Shown in pieces: positions 10,685-37,196 of a stretch of DNA of 64,000 bases. Position 1 is the stretch's first letter. Every line of letters starts with the position of its first letter. The notes below the pieces were generated by a model. That model did not search any database and was not told the origin of the DNA. It saw only the letters and a program-made list of their open reading frames with translations. The translations under genes and the position numbers were made by a program. The DNA is taken from positions 62,001 to 126,000 of IMG/VR virus record IMGVR_UViG_2162886007_000107; one strand, 5' to 3'. Origin of the DNA: a virus.

Positions 10685-12769
10685 ATGCCACTGAATACTG
10701 AAGACCAAGGCTCACAATTCGAAGGCTGGGACGGCAAGAACCCTCAGCAACCGGGCGGTGGCCAGTCGCAACAACCGAACGGCAACTTCAACGGTGGTCT
10801 GCTGGGCGCACTGTTCGGCATGAACTCCATGGTTGCAGACAACCGTAACCTGAAGATCGTTTCGGAAGTCTACGACGTCCTGAACGAGAAAATCTTCAAG
10901 GACATCAACACTTCCACTACCGACGACCGTCAACGCAAAATCGTACCGAAGGTTGAGCAGCTGACTCAGACCCTGTCCTCGCAATTGCCAGGTCTGGGCT
11001 TCTGGGCAGTGATCGACGGCACCATGTACGTGATGGCAGCGCTGTTCTCCAACAAGGACCTGAACATCGGTTCGGAAAGCATCACCGTCAACAACGCTCA
11101 CGGCAGCCAGCAACGCACCTCGATCCCGCTGACCCCGGCCGCTCAAATCAACGAGCGCTTCATCAACAACCTGAAAGAGCACTACCAGCAAGTCGCCGCT
11201 TCCAAAGGCGTCAGCAACCTGGTTCTGACCAACCTGGTCGTCCAGGACATGGAAATGCTCAATCACCCGGAATCCGGTGAAACCAAAGACTGGCCGTTCA
11301 ACATCGCCCAGTACCTGGCCACCCAGTGGGAAGAAGCACTCCTGGTCTACGCCGCCAAGCTGATCGTTCAGAAAGGCGGCGCGATTCCATCGCCATGGCT
11401 GGAACCGAACCACCCGTACGGCAAAGACAACGTCGCCGAAGCTCGTGTACAAGCGATCTCCGGCCGCGTTACTCGCGCCAAGACTCTGTCGCCTGCCAAC
11501 ATGGAAATCGTGGTTACCACCATGAATGCCCAGGGCAACACTCACACCTTCAACCAGGCAAGCACTCGTGAGATCGCTCGCGTAACTGCGGCTGTCAGCC
11601 TGGCCGGTGTACCGTGGGCCGACTACCAGCAACAAATGGCAATGCAGATGCAGTCCCAGGACCACATGGCAAACCTGCGTGCCTTCATGGGCCAGGCGTA
11701 CCAGGCTGGTTCCGTATGGCAAGGCACCTACCGTCCGCTGCGTCCGGAGATCACCATCGACACCGTTACTGCCGGCGAAATGCTGCGCAACAACGGCGGT
11801 ATCTTCCCGTGGTTCTACGGCCTGTACGCTCTGATGACTTCCAACAACCAGTTCGTCTGGGCGGAAGCACTGCGCAAGGCTCAGGTCGGTGGTCGTGGTT
11901 CGCTGGTCGGCCTCGAAACTCGTATCAAGATGGTGGCTCAAGAAATGCCGGGCTTCGCTCAGCTGATCGCGGCCAAGAACAATCTTCGCATCCCTCTGGA
12001 TGACAAGAACATCAACGATACCGACTTCGTGACCAACTGGATCCGCCAGAACGTTTCGCCGCACGCGATCTTCCGCGTGAACCTGATCCCGAACGGTCCG
12101 GATTCGCCAATCGTCAACTTCCTCCGTGAACTCTGCGGTACCAACTCGTACGAGGCCACCAAGGTAGTCGTCGCTCTGATCGACTCCATGACCAAGTTCA
12201 AGTTCTCCGAGATCATCAACGAGAACAAGGCTCGTGGCACCGGCTGGTACCCAGATCCACAGAAGCCGATCCTGATCAACACCAATACCCTGGTGGTGAA
12301 CGGTATCGCAACTTCGACCCTGGCTTCGCGCGATCACAAAGAGCGCGTGATCAACACCCAGGAAGTGGACGAAATGTTCATCTGCAACAGCAAGCCTGGC
12401 GACACCGCAGCTTCCACCGCGGCAATCGACAGCTACCTGGGCACTGTGTACGGTAACAACCCGAACGAAAACGCCAAAGAACGTTCGCAGAAACTGCGTG
12501 TGGAACAATCGTCTTCGCTGTTCGACGGTCGCAACCACATCAACAGCTTCGGTTCGTCGGCTGTATTCGATCCGGGCTTCATGGCTGCAATGGCTGGCGC
12601 AATGGACACCATCGGTGGCCTGAACGCAGCCAACAACCTGGGCTCGTTCCGCGTACACCGTCTGGCTTCTACTCCGGGCATCGGTCTGGCTACTCTGGTT
12701 GGCGCTGGTTCCAACGGCCTCAACCTGGGCGCAAACCAGGCGTTCAACATCACTGTACCGCTGATCTAA
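10685..12769 (+). CDS. chmA: Probable chimallin (phage nucleus shell protein)
   Basis: A 694-residue protein with a flexible Gly/Gln/Asn-rich N-terminus (residues about 8-40), a long folded region and an extended C-terminal tail (residues about 665-694). Chimallin forms the protein lattice enclosing phage DNA. Three points favour it: an early-type promoter, very strong codon bias as in the most abundant proteins, and direct linkage to the RNA polymerase beta' N-half, which I recall as the phiKZ gp54-gp55 arrangement. The main alternative is the major capsid protein, which is also abundant, but I see no prohead-cleavage region near residue 160 and capsid genes are not expected here. I identify it mainly by context, not by motif. 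Confidence 0.6.
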   Translation: MPLNTEDQGSQFEGWDGKNPQQPGGGQSQQPNGNFNGGLLGALFGMNSMVADNRNLKIVSEVYDVLNEKIFKDINTSTTDDRQRKIVPKVEQLTQTLSSQLPGLGFWAVIDGTMYVMAALFSNKDLNIGSESITVNNAHGSQQRTSIPLTPAAQINERFINNLKEHYQQVAASKGVSNLVLTNLVVQDMEMLNHPESGETKDWPFNIAQYLATQWEEALLVYAAKLIVQKGGAIPSPWLEPNHPYGKDNVAEARVQAISGRVTRAKTLSPANMEIVVTTMNAQGNTHTFNQASTREIARVTAAVSLAGVPWADYQQQMAMQMQSQDHMANLRAFMGQAYQAGSVWQGTYRPLRPEITIDTVTAGEMLRNNGGIFPWFYGLYALMTSNNQFVWAEALRKAQVGGRGSLVGLETRIKMVAQEMPGFAQLIAAKNNLRIPLDDKNINDTDFVTNWIRQNVSPHAIFRVNLIPNGPDSPIVNFLRELCGTNSYEATKVVVALIDSMTKFKFSEIINENKARGTGWYPDPQKPILINTNTLVVNGIATSTLASRDHKERVINTQEVDEMFICNSKPGDTAASTAAIDSYLGTVYGNNPNENAKERSQKLRVEQSSSLFDGRNHINSFGSSAVFDPGFMAAMAGAMDTIGGLNAANNLGSFRVHRLASTPGIGLATLVGAGSNGLNLGANQAFNITVPLI

Positions 12770-31879: not shown

Positions 31880-31934
31880 TACTACTCCCTAGCCCCGTTA
31901 AGGGCTAGGGAGTAGTATACTTTCTTTATTTTTT
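31880..31934. terminator. Bidirectional terminator
   Basis: TACTACTCCCTAGCCC (31880-31895) pairs perfectly over 16 bp with GGGCTAGGGAGTAGTA (31902-31917), followed by CTTTCTTTATTTTTTTTGC. Convergent genes lie on both sides. Confidence 0.88.
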
Positions 31935-31937
31935 TTG

Positions 31938-33239
31938 CTATTTGATCGCAGTAGCCAGATCCAAAGTAACAATCTTGTTACCTGCAACGTGAGCAGCCTT
32001 CATCTTCTGCAACATGGCGTTGGTAGGCATACGGACTACTTCAGCACTAACCTGGTTCTTGTTGGAACCCAAACCGCTGCCACAGCACATGAAGCAGTAG
32101 TTGTCGTCAGGAGTGATGCAGAAGTTGGTGGTACGGATAACCAGCACCTTACCCATGTACTTATCAATAAGCTCATTGGTAATGAGAACAGACTCACCGC
32201 CGATGAGAGCAAAGCTACCAACCCAGTTACCTTTGGCAGTCTTGTCAATGGTGATAACCTCACCCCACTTAGTGCCGCAGTCGTCTTCAGCAACCACACG
32301 ACGACCTACAATCTTCAGGTAATCCTTAACCTTAGCACCGCCCTCACCAGTAGACATCGAACGGCTATACGAACCCACAACGGCCGTGTTGATGTAGTCG
32401 ACGATCTTCTCTGGATCCATACCGTCTTCCAGAGCCATCGGCAATGCCACCCAGCCAGTACCGTCAGCATTAGGCTCAACACCGAAAGCAATGAACATAC
32501 GTTTACGGGCGTTATCAATGAACTTCTTCTCAATGTAGAAGGAAGCACCTTCACTGTTGAGCTGTTCTTCCATGTCCATCTTGACCAGGATGTTTACCGC
32601 AGCAGTAAATGCAACCGGATCGTTAAGCTTCCCTTCTTTCTTGAGTGCGTCGAAGAGTTCCTTCTTCTTAGCCATGACCGTAGGGCTAGGCGTCAGACCT
32701 TGCAGGCCAGGCGTACGAATGTAGTAGGTACCCAAGCCTTCCAGGAAGTTAAGGTGCGTTGTAAACTTCATACAGGCGCTTACAGGGGCTTTACCTTCAG
32801 GTACTTCTTCCCCTTCAGCTGGATCATCTACCATGACTGAAGAAAGCAGACCTTTAACCAGATCTGCGGTGAACTCTTCATTCTTGAAAGGAACGATCGC
32901 ACCGAATACTTCCCAAAGAAGAACCACGTTACAGAGGATCAATCCAAAGACTGTCTCCTGTGGCACTCCTTTCAGCATCGGGTGGAAGTCACCAGGGATA
33001 TCTACTGGATCATCCATTACAAAGAACGGTTCTTTTACATCACCGTCCAGAGTAACTTGTTGTTCATCAATGATGGCTTGGAACTTACCCTTCTCGACAA
33101 ACACAGCCCCAGGAACCTTCTTGAACTGCTCGCTTGAGTCAGGTCCTTCAAACTGGATGGAAATAATCGATTGGATTGCCGCTTTCTCTGCATACCAGCG
33201 GTTAGCAAACCAGATCTTTAGAAAGTCAACCTTTTTCAT
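31938..33239 (-). CDS. Second beta' C-terminal RNA polymerase subunit (virion polymerase, phiKZ gp80-like)
   Basis: A 433-residue protein. The segment from SYSRSMSTGEGG (about 290-301) to RRVVAEDDCGT (313-323) matches the bacterial beta' trigger loop followed by VVTEDDCGT. The second zinc site is C321, C374, C382 and C385 (NFCITPDDNYCFMCCG). GQNTL-type sequence is replaced by KMKAAHVAGNK at the end. It is clearly distinct from the beta' C-half at 26809, so the phage encodes two polymerases. By size and order it fits the virion polymerase packaged to transcribe early genes. The start overlaps the stop of the upstream minus-strand gene (ATGA). Confidence 0.8.
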   Translation of the reverse strand: MKKVDFLKIWFANRWYAEKAAIQSIISIQFEGPDSSEQFKKVPGAVFVEKGKFQAIIDEQQVTLDGDVKEPFFVMDDPVDIPGDFHPMLKGVPQETVFGLILCNVVLLWEVFGAIVPFKNEEFTADLVKGLLSSVMVDDPAEGEEVPEGKAPVSACMKFTTHLNFLEGLGTYYIRTPGLQGLTPSPTVMAKKKELFDALKKEGKLNDPVAFTAAVNILVKMDMEEQLNSEGASFYIEKKFIDNARKRMFIAFGVEPNADGTGWVALPMALEDGMDPEKIVDYINTAVVGSYSRSMSTGEGGAKVKDYLKIVGRRVVAEDDCGTKWGEVITIDKTAKGNWVGSFALIGGESVLITNELIDKYMGKVLVIRTTNFCITPDDNYCFMCCGSGLGSNKNQVSAEVVRMPTNAMLQKMKAAHVAGNKIVTLDLATAIK

Positions 33240-34240: not shown

Positions 34241-35035
34241 ATGGCTAACAAACAAACCAGCATGAGAGCCAAAAAGCAACAAAAGGCCAAGACTCGCCAA
34301 AAAGAAGTGCTCCGGAAAAAGAACCCGGCCACTCAAAAGGTTAAGCCAACTGATGCGCAACTCAAGTACGAGATCAGCAAACGCGGTCTGGTAGCCACGG
34401 CCAAGAAGTATCGTCGTGCCCTGGATAAGGGCGATACCAGCAACGGCCCTAGCCATAACGATATCTCGCAGGGTTTTATTACCTTCATTGATATCATGAC
34501 GCCGATCCACTCCGCCTTGGAAATCGCCGACATCCTGGTTAAAGAAGGCAAGATCACCTTCTCTGATGAAGAGCGGGCACAGATCAATGCTTTCGACGAA
34601 CAAATCGTTAAGGCCAATGAAGACATCAACGCCATCGGCGAGTTCATGAAAGAGGGCCTGGAGTTCCACGACTTCGCCGACCTGTTCGTGCACTACGCTG
34701 AACTGTCCGCCAACATGGCCACCGATACCGCTCCTCTGCTGTTCCGTCAGATCCTGAAGCCTTACGGCGTGATGATCAGCGAATACGCCCGTGAACACAA
34801 GATCACTGGTGAGGTCGATATGGCCTACGCAATGCGCATGCACGAACAGCGCATGAAAACTATCTACCCTCTCTACCGTACCATCCTGGACGACAGTCCG
34901 TTGGACGTTCCGGAAGAAGGCGATGATGCCGGCATTCCTCCAGAGTTCATCCCTGCTGGGGAGATCTCCGATGCCGAACTCGTCGGTGATGTTGTAGTCG
35001 ATGAACTCCGTGACGTCTCGCAAGGTGACAAGTAA
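34241..35035 (+). CDS. Putative virion protein (264 aa) with basic N-terminus
   Basis: ATG at 34241 follows AAGGA. The first 40 residues are strongly basic (MRAKKQQKAKTRQKEVLRKK), suggesting nucleic-acid contact, followed by helical acidic regions. Codon use is biased. It starts the virion gene block and overlaps the next gene (TAATG). By order it may match phiKZ gp83. No family is recognised. Confidence 0.7.
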   Translation: MANKQTSMRAKKQQKAKTRQKEVLRKKNPATQKVKPTDAQLKYEISKRGLVATAKKYRRALDKGDTSNGPSHNDISQGFITFIDIMTPIHSALEIADILVKEGKITFSDEERAQINAFDEQIVKANEDINAIGEFMKEGLEFHDFADLFVHYAELSANMATDTAPLLFRQILKPYGVMISEYAREHKITGEVDMAYAMRMHEQRMKTIYPLYRTILDDSPLDVPEEGDDAGIPPEFIPAGEISDAELVGDVVVDELRDVSQGDK

Positions 35036-36738
35036 TGTCCGAAGAAAACAACAGCCCTGAACAGCAACCGTCTTCTGAAAAGAAGCCGACGGCTAAGTAC
35101 AGTGAAAAGCACACCCCTGAAAACACTTCGATGAAGCATCGCCAGGATCCACGGGATTTCATTATCCGGGACCTGACCGAGAAAGAAATCGAAGACGGTT
35201 ACATGACCATCTTCATGGGTAACACCAAAGCCAGTCGCGAACATGCTCATCAGCTGATTCGTCCGTACATGGACTTGATCGTTATCCGTGATCTGCATCA
35301 GCGCGGTAAAGTCGAAGACGACATCCTGCGTAAAGCAGAAGATGACTGGGCTCGTTTCGTTGAGACCAACTATCCAGAACACACCCTGGAAGAAATCACC
35401 ACTCGTGCTCAGCACCTCATGGAGTTCCACAACGAAATCCTGGATGAGCTGCGTCAGCGCAGTAACGCCATTCGTGAACCGGGCATTACCAACGTCTCTG
35501 ACCGCGGCGGTGTGATCACTGGTGATGTGGTCGGTCGTACTCCAGGTCTCGGTACCAAGGGTCTGAAACCTTCGGCCATCATGCGTCGTCGTTCTGCTCG
35601 TGCGGAAGATGGCAAGATGGCTTTCGACATCATGCTGCGTAACTCCTTCATTAAGAGTACCATTGCTCGTCCTGGTAAAGGTCAGCTCGGTATTCTGATC
35701 GATGAGATCAAGGATGAGATCAAGGGTTACGTCCGCAAGGTCAACAACAACATGGCTGTACTGGCACGTATTGCAGTAGGTCGTGTGTTGTGGCGTCACT
35801 ACATCAAGTTGCTGACCAGCACCAGTGTGAACGACATTGCTGACTACAACCAGTTGGCTCGTATCGTTCGCTGGTCTGACATTGATGCCATTGCTGTGGG
35901 TATCCTCAATGCCTACACCAACAAGGGTGTGAACCTGCATCTGGTGTGTGGCAACCCAACCTGCGACTGGAATCGCATGGGTCTGGCGGATGTAGAGAAA
36001 TTGCTGCATATCCGTCCTGACTACGATACCGATGAAGAAGCGGCGATCTTCGCTAACCTCTTCAACGAGAAGGCGACCTACACCTCCGAAGAAACCTTGG
36101 CTCTGATCCGTGAAACCAAATACGGTCTCGAAGACAAGCGCGTGTACAACGAAGACAACAGCATCTGCCTGGAACTGGAATCTCCTTCCATGGCCGACGC
36201 CTTTGCCTCCTTGGACTTCTTCCTCGGTCGTGTTAACCCACTCATCCAGGGTATCCGTGAACGGAACATCTCGATGGAAGAGTTCGAAGAGAAGCGCAAC
36301 ATGCTCTTCATCGAACTGGGTGCCACTGAGTACATGCACTGGGTAAGCGCCTTTATCTCGGTTGCAGCTCCTGGCAGTGACGAGAAGGATGTTGTCCTGC
36401 GTCGTAGCGATGTCGAGGATCAGGCTGACTTCAACGAAGGTGTAATGGATATCATCCAGGACAGCCAGTACCTTCAAGAGAACCTGACTCAAGGTATCCT
36501 GCGTAAGACTCCGTTCATGTCGAAGACTTTCGCTGGTGTGCAGAACTACTGCTGCCCGAAATGCAAGATGAACCAGGATATCTTCGAGGACCCTGAAGGA
36601 CTCAAACAGCGTAAGTTGGGTTACACTCCAATCGATCCGCTCATGAGTTTTTTTATCCTTATCCAGTTGATTCAAGTTCGTCAGGCAACCGAAGCGCTAG
36701 AGGCAAGGGCAAAAGCCCTCTCCGCATTGGAAAACTGA
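35035..36738 (+). CDS. Putative virion protein (567 aa), possible -1 frameshift product
   Basis: ATG at 35035 overlaps the upstream stop. The protein is charged and helical, with Cys pairs at CGNPTC (about 304-309) and CCPKC (near 506-510) that could bind zinc. At 36648-36654 a run of seven T is read as AGT TTT TTT, a perfect slippery heptamer. The -1 frame stays open from there into the next coding region up to 37196. The normal product ends 28 codons after the run (to ALSALEN). A fusion of about 700 residues may therefore also be made. Confidence 0.75.
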   Translation: MSEENNSPEQQPSSEKKPTAKYSEKHTPENTSMKHRQDPRDFIIRDLTEKEIEDGYMTIFMGNTKASREHAHQLIRPYMDLIVIRDLHQRGKVEDDILRKAEDDWARFVETNYPEHTLEEITTRAQHLMEFHNEILDELRQRSNAIREPGITNVSDRGGVITGDVVGRTPGLGTKGLKPSAIMRRRSARAEDGKMAFDIMLRNSFIKSTIARPGKGQLGILIDEIKDEIKGYVRKVNNNMAVLARIAVGRVLWRHYIKLLTSTSVNDIADYNQLARIVRWSDIDAIAVGILNAYTNKGVNLHLVCGNPTCDWNRMGLADVEKLLHIRPDYDTDEEAAIFANLFNEKATYTSEETLALIRETKYGLEDKRVYNEDNSICLELESPSMADAFASLDFFLGRVNPLIQGIRERNISMEEFEEKRNMLFIELGATEYMHWVSAFISVAAPGSDEKDVVLRRSDVEDQADFNEGVMDIIQDSQYLQENLTQGILRKTPFMSKTFAGVQNYCCPKCKMNQDIFEDPEGLKQRKLGYTPIDPLMSFFILIQLIQVRQATEALEARAKALSALEN

Positions 36739-37196
36739 GTCGATACAACAAGGGTGCGTTTAGTGTTGTCCATGAGAACATTACGCGTAACTTGCTGGGT
36801 AAGTCTACTAAGGAGATGCTTCCTGAGACTTTGTATTTCAATGAGCGCATGCTCTATGACTTCAACATGGAGTACTACACTCCTAAGAATCAGGATCCAT
36901 TCTCCTCGGTAGGTTGGTTCAAGGAAGAGAACGAATACTTCCACCCGCTGTCTTTGAGTATGTCAGGTGAAACATACGGCTATCACAAGCTGCATGAGAT
37001 CATGCCTATCAAAGACTTCTTTGAAATGCCAAACGTTATGGTAGAGGAAATCCTTGACTCTGTATCGCGTGGTTTGAAGAAGCGGGAAGAAGCAGAGGCC
37101 GCTAAAGCCAAAGCCAAGGAAGACAAGAACCCAGACAATATCGAAAAACAGCTTGGAGCAGAGCTTCGTAAAGCTGGTATCAAACTGGATAGGTAA
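36654..37196 (+). CDS. Frame entered by -1 shift, or independent gene without a clear start
   Basis: This frame is open from the slippery run to TAA at 37196. Convincing coding begins at about 36740 (RYNKGAFSVVHENITR, NLLGKSTKEMLPETLYFNER), upstream of the first ATG at 36816. No good ribosome binding site or start codon explains that part: TTG 36792 and CTG 36735 are the only candidates. The C-terminus is Lys/Ala/Glu-rich (REEAEAAKAKAKEDKN). I infer expression as the C-terminal part of a frameshift fusion, with a homopolymer error or an unusual start as alternatives. Confidence 0.6.
   Translation, partial: YPYPVDSSSSGNRSARGKGKSPLRIGKLSRYNKGAFSVVHENITRNLLGKSTKEMLPETLYFNERMLYDFNMEYYTPKNQDPFSSVGWFKEENEYFHPLSLSMSGETYGYHKLHEIMPIKDFFEMPNVMVEEILDSVSRGLKKREEAEAAKAKAKEDKNPDNIEKQLGAELRKAGIKLDR

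Follow-up and report, generated by a model that had tools for sequence, protein, structure and literature searches.

A probable programmed -1 frameshift in a gene family of nucleus-forming phages, phiKZ included

The locus of the probable frameshift

The window analysed here, 64,000 nucleotides in length, was taken from a virus record of 236,430 bp (IMG/VR IMGVR_UViG_2162886007_000107), of which it covers bases 62001-126000. On its plus strand lies a gene that ends in two overlapping frames, which part at a run of seven T. The zero-frame gene (35035..36738, +) encodes 567 amino acids (aa), is the orthologue of phiKZ gp77 (phrog_4585) and would give the shorter of two products, comparable in this respect to gpG of phage lambda. 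Its protein contains two conserved cysteine pairs, C305/C310 and C507/C510. Near the 3' end of the open reading frame (ORF) the sequence is ATG AGT TTT TTT ATC, with AGT TTT TTT at 36646-36654. The heptamer T TTT TTT within it (36648..36654, +) keeps the codon phase set by the ATG at 35035 and has the slippery form X XXY YYZ, which an earlier reading made from the sequence alone had noticed.

That sequence-only reading also described what follows the run. The zero frame does remain open and coding, for 27 codons before the TGA at 36738. The -1 frame is open as described, for 182 codons from the T run to the TAA at 37196 (36648..37196, +); it would add a C-terminal domain of the gpGT kind to the shorter product. 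We found no start site belonging to this extension: the first ATG in the -1 frame is codon 57, and no Shine-Dalgarno sequence lies at 4-12 nucleotides (nt) from it. The earlier reading had likewise placed convincing coding in this frame, from about 36740, upstream of any ATG and had seen no ribosome binding site.

Conservation of the slippery site

A nucleotide-level search found no near relative. At the protein level, tblastn gave matches in 69 phage records for the zero-frame protein and in 52 for the -1 extension, and a search with phiKZ gp77 yielded a zero-frame family of 225 records, a few of them weak. A scan of bacterial and archaeal genomes returned no relative.

Comparing the T run and both frames across related phages, we inspected 49 homologous loci (46 by script, PA7 by eye, and two with G TTT TTT). 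These came from phiKZ, PA7, 201phi2-1, EL, RisingSun, OBP, Miami, Vibrio and Aeromonas jumbo phages, Goslar, SPN3US and metagenomic relatives. In 47 of them a heptamer T TTT TTT, T TTT TTC or T TTT TTA is present in phase, and the distance from heptamer to zero-frame stop is 10-29 codons; the -1 frame is open for approximately 160-190 codons in all 49. The site is kept in phiKZ-, EL-, OBP-, Vibrio-, Goslar- and SPN3US-type phages despite differing flanking residues. For example, Goslar has CTT TTT TTT and SPN3US has GTT TTT TTC, in each case within a neighbouring protein sequence that differs. The codon preceding the heptamer encodes S, N, T, A, G, V or L, and ends in T in every case. In the group of close relatives, phenylalanine codons upstream of the site are mostly TTC (232, against 41 TTT), while both slip codons are TTT in all members.

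Gene 77 of phiKZ itself ends in TCA ACT TTT TTT ACT, with the -1 frame open for 167 codons. PHIKZ076.4 (AF399011 71442-71684) has been annotated as a small gene of its own, but it represents only the C-terminal half of the gp77 extension. The two halves have further orthologues in 201phi2-1 (gp136 and gp135) and EL (gp47 and ORF048), where, as in phiKZ, they are annotated as separate hypothetical proteins.

Some records are fragmented in this region. In vB_PQ1 (PQ516283, 184 kb) the frameshift gene and its neighbours are split into many short coding sequences (CDSs), which suggests low-quality sequence. In the Salmonella phages SPFM1, 5, 9, 10, 14, 15 and 20 the extension is in 7-8 separate pieces, probably through sequencing indels.

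Selection in both frames

We measured pairwise differences at codon positions 1, 2 and 3 within the close group. Over the 50 codons before the site they are 0.21/0.16/0.44. In the overlap, which occupies 36655..36738 (+) of the window, they are equalised over the three positions at 0.34/0.33/0.38, and past the zero-frame stop, counted in the -1 frame, they are 0.41/0.33/0.58. The codon-position pattern changes likewise in the OBP-like group. Among codons for the same residue, synonymous differences amount to 0.37-0.58 upstream of the site but only 0.23-0.27 within the overlap. In other words, an ordinary coding pattern ahead of the site gives way to dual coding in the overlap, with selection on both frames, followed by a switch to coding in the -1 frame. 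The chance of a 180-codon stop-free -1 frame is approximately 3.5e-5 and 3e-10 at the stop densities of the two groups; judged from the sequences, a chance origin of the phased heptamer together with the open -1 frame is excluded.

Directly before the zero-frame stop, AGCCCTCTC is invariant in 13 close relatives (window 36640-36738). Dual coding explains most of this invariance, and a role of the RNA is possible.

Probable ribosomal slippage and its alternatives

Because the phased heptamer is conserved, the overlap is dually coded and no alternative start is present, comparative sequence analysis makes it very probable that this gene family of nucleus-forming phages, including phiKZ, uses a programmed -1 frameshift. 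Most ribosomes would pass T TTT TTT without a shift and terminate 27 codons further on, releasing the 567-residue protein. A fraction would slip back one base with tRNA-Phe in the P and A sites (UUU UUU/C -> UUU UUU), and would then read approximately 180 further codons to make a fusion of approximately 720 residues. The sequence-only reading had compared the arrangement with frameshifts of the gag-pol or tail-chaperone type. As to the frameshift, it is backed by comparative evidence across the family; the likeness to tail chaperones is moderately supported by the predicted fold.

Two observations weigh against a programmed frameshift. The first concerns RNA structure. The GC hairpin reported downstream of the run, AGGGC-AAAA-GCCCT (36704..36719, +), occurs in this sequence and is base-paired in its predicted fold, yet relatives lack it: RNAalifold gave 0 consensus pairs for 13 close relatives, so that no conserved nested stimulatory structure was found among them. 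Single-sequence folding z-scores range from -2.2 to +1.1. We rejected the hairpin as a conserved stimulator, since it does not recur in relatives. The second is that G TTT TTT replaces T TTT TTT in two relatives of 201phi2-1.

Both of these phages keep the -1 frame open, and as natural variants they could reveal which slips are tolerated.

We infer that the ribosome slips rather than the RNA polymerase. Under transcriptional slippage, the phage's own RNA polymerase would add a U within the T run, placing a share of the mRNAs in the fused frame. The seven T found in many members would suit this, as would the phage's use of its own multisubunit polymerases. However, in many members the run is limited to six T, with C or A next, and in two it consists of G and six T; the run still keeps precisely the phase that a ribosomal heptamer requires, for which RNA slippage has no need. 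We therefore regard transcriptional slippage as improbable, and ribosomal -1 slippage as the best mechanism.

Annotators have taken the two frames for distinct genes, with translation of the second beginning at an internal start, and records do carry a downstream hypothetical CDS. The annotated starts of this CDS, however, range from overlapping the stop to 237 nt past it. Across 44 loci we found no conserved internal start or Shine-Dalgarno sequence for the extension, and thus no conserved conventional start of the second frame in relatives: a start codon with a Shine-Dalgarno match of at least 5 bases occurs in the first 90 codons at only 3 of the 44, at a different codon each time. Most full-length tblastn matches to the extension in relatives begin at the slip site or one residue after it, far upstream of the first ATG, which in phiKZ is codon 88 of 167. 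Because no start is conserved and conservation reaches the slip site, internal initiation cannot account for the conserved first part of the extension, and we consider two separate genes very unlikely. Least likely of all is that the true T count fuses the frames or that the second frame is the relic of a decayed gene, because, error-prone as homopolymer runs are, the extension has the identical -1 offset from the zero-frame match in all 55 isolate records (30/30 and 25/25 in two sets) and both frames are under purifying selection. Sequencing error, gene decay and internal initiation were accordingly rejected on frame offset, selection and start-site data.

Predicted function

With ribosomal -1 slippage as the mechanism, we favour, with moderate confidence, a function as a pair of tail/baseplate-hub assembly chaperones that would act like lambda gpG/gpGT and T4 gp26/gp51. 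The AlphaFold2 model of the zero-frame product is confident (predicted local distance difference test score (pLDDT) 83.9, predicted template modelling (TM) score (pTM) 0.84). Its best viral matches in Foldseek are jumbo-phage proteins, the top ones orthologues. Also among the matches are a 'baseplate hub assembly protein, T4-like' (probability 1.00, E 5e-3, target TM 0.49) and a 'baseplate hub assembly chaperone' of phage ACP17 (probability 0.97, target TM 0.50). A CPxC motif lies near the C-terminus, as in T4 gp26.

T4 gp26 and gp51 belong to one family (PF12322), in which gp51 amounts to gp26 with a C-terminal extension. The likeness to the present gene lies in the predicted fold, in the pairing of a gp26-type form with a gp51-type form that carries a C-terminal extension, and in the CPxC near the end of gp26. 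The short form and the frameshift-extended form would thus be analogous to the T4 pair. Unlike here, the T4 forms reportedly come from two paralogous genes without frameshifting (Vladimirov et al. 2022, going by its title), and the PF12322 profile has no match in the present protein. According to PMC3004832, both T4 proteins are chaperones of hub assembly, and gp51 does not form part of the phage particle.

Frameshifts in tail-chaperone genes are well documented, both among lambda-like phages and beyond them (PMC5009743, PMC10885494), and the conserved frameshift of lambda gpG/gpGT was described by Xu, Hendrix and Duda (2004), as cited in PMC5009743. The present gene resembles gpG/gpGT in its predicted short and extended products with a common N-terminal part, which are probably not virion proteins. 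It differs in a first frame of approximately 540-570 aa, compared with which lambda gpG is much shorter, and has no sequence link to it.

On this reading the short form would have a hub-chaperone fold of the T4 type, and the extension would serve to bring in a further component of the tail. The sequence-only reading had placed the frameshift in a virion cluster, which is doubtful for the product itself. In the 201phi2-1 record gp138 is flagged as detected by mass spectrometry and gp136 is not. For phage Churi, PMC11849849 counts the homologue with the non-structural proteins detected 15 min post infection, consistent with a protein that stays outside the virion.

Several results weigh against a chaperone. 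The Foldseek E-values for hub chaperones are weak (5e-3 to 5e-2) and these matches rank below 19 better ones. The model of the extension is poor (pLDDT 63.7) and does not allow a classification; the one good viral match it has is unnamed. The PF12322 profile matches nothing in the window phage, phiKZ, Goslar, OBP or EL, and sequence-profile comparisons with T4 gp26, gp51 and gp28, HHalign included, were not significant. The 15-min time point at which the homologue is already found in Churi would be early for a tail assembly factor. Pfam and PDB sequence searches gave no significant match, and a PDB fold search gave nothing. Because sequence profiles do not confirm the chaperone link, we keep the protein out of PF12322, though it probably works like the members of that family.

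There is an appreciable, if lesser, chance that the frameshift is real and the protein serves another conserved step of nucleus-forming phages. The early detection in Churi and the lack of a sequence-profile link to tail chaperones would suit such a role, as would the position of the gene, which adjoins virion RNA polymerase and DNA polymerase genes. The fold similarity to hub assembly chaperones argues the other way, as do the CPxC motif shared with T4 gp26 and the evidence that the product is not a virion protein; frameshifted phage proteins, moreover, are typically tail chaperones. More specifically, a family-wide frameshift missed since phiKZ was sequenced, yielding a two-form protein in a core step of infection other than chaperoning, seems to us possible but rather doubtful.

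Implications for annotation and tail assembly

Our search of mainly open-licence literature yielded no report of a frameshift in phiKZ-like phages, though one may exist elsewhere; none is mentioned in the family's core-genome paper (PMC10299810). Through the frameshift, a gene conserved across an intensively studied family of phages, phiKZ and 201phi2-1 among them, would gain a second product, and the annotated downstream genes would be artificial fragments. If the chaperone reading is true, a gap in the tail assembly of giant phages is filled, and a pair of short and long chaperones would have been reached by two evolutionary routes, gene duplication in T4 versus frameshifting here.

Surrounding genes

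The window encodes the nuclear shell protein chimallin (10685..12769, +; phrog_4795), phage RNA polymerase subunits and a DNA polymerase. Because of these genes, the source phage is, on gene content, a nucleus-forming jumbo phage.

The gene that precedes the frameshift gene (34241..35035, +) encodes 264 aa and corresponds in position to phiKZ gp78; its stop overlaps the start of the frameshift gene in TAATG. In the annotated loci inspected, a counterpart lies directly 5' of the frameshift gene, and its product may be a partner.

A second homopolymer, a run of eight T at 31929-31936, lies just 5' of a 301-aa ORF that has no PHROG match and is antisense to the RNA polymerase gene at 31938-33239. 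The run is likely a terminator and the ORF likely spurious.
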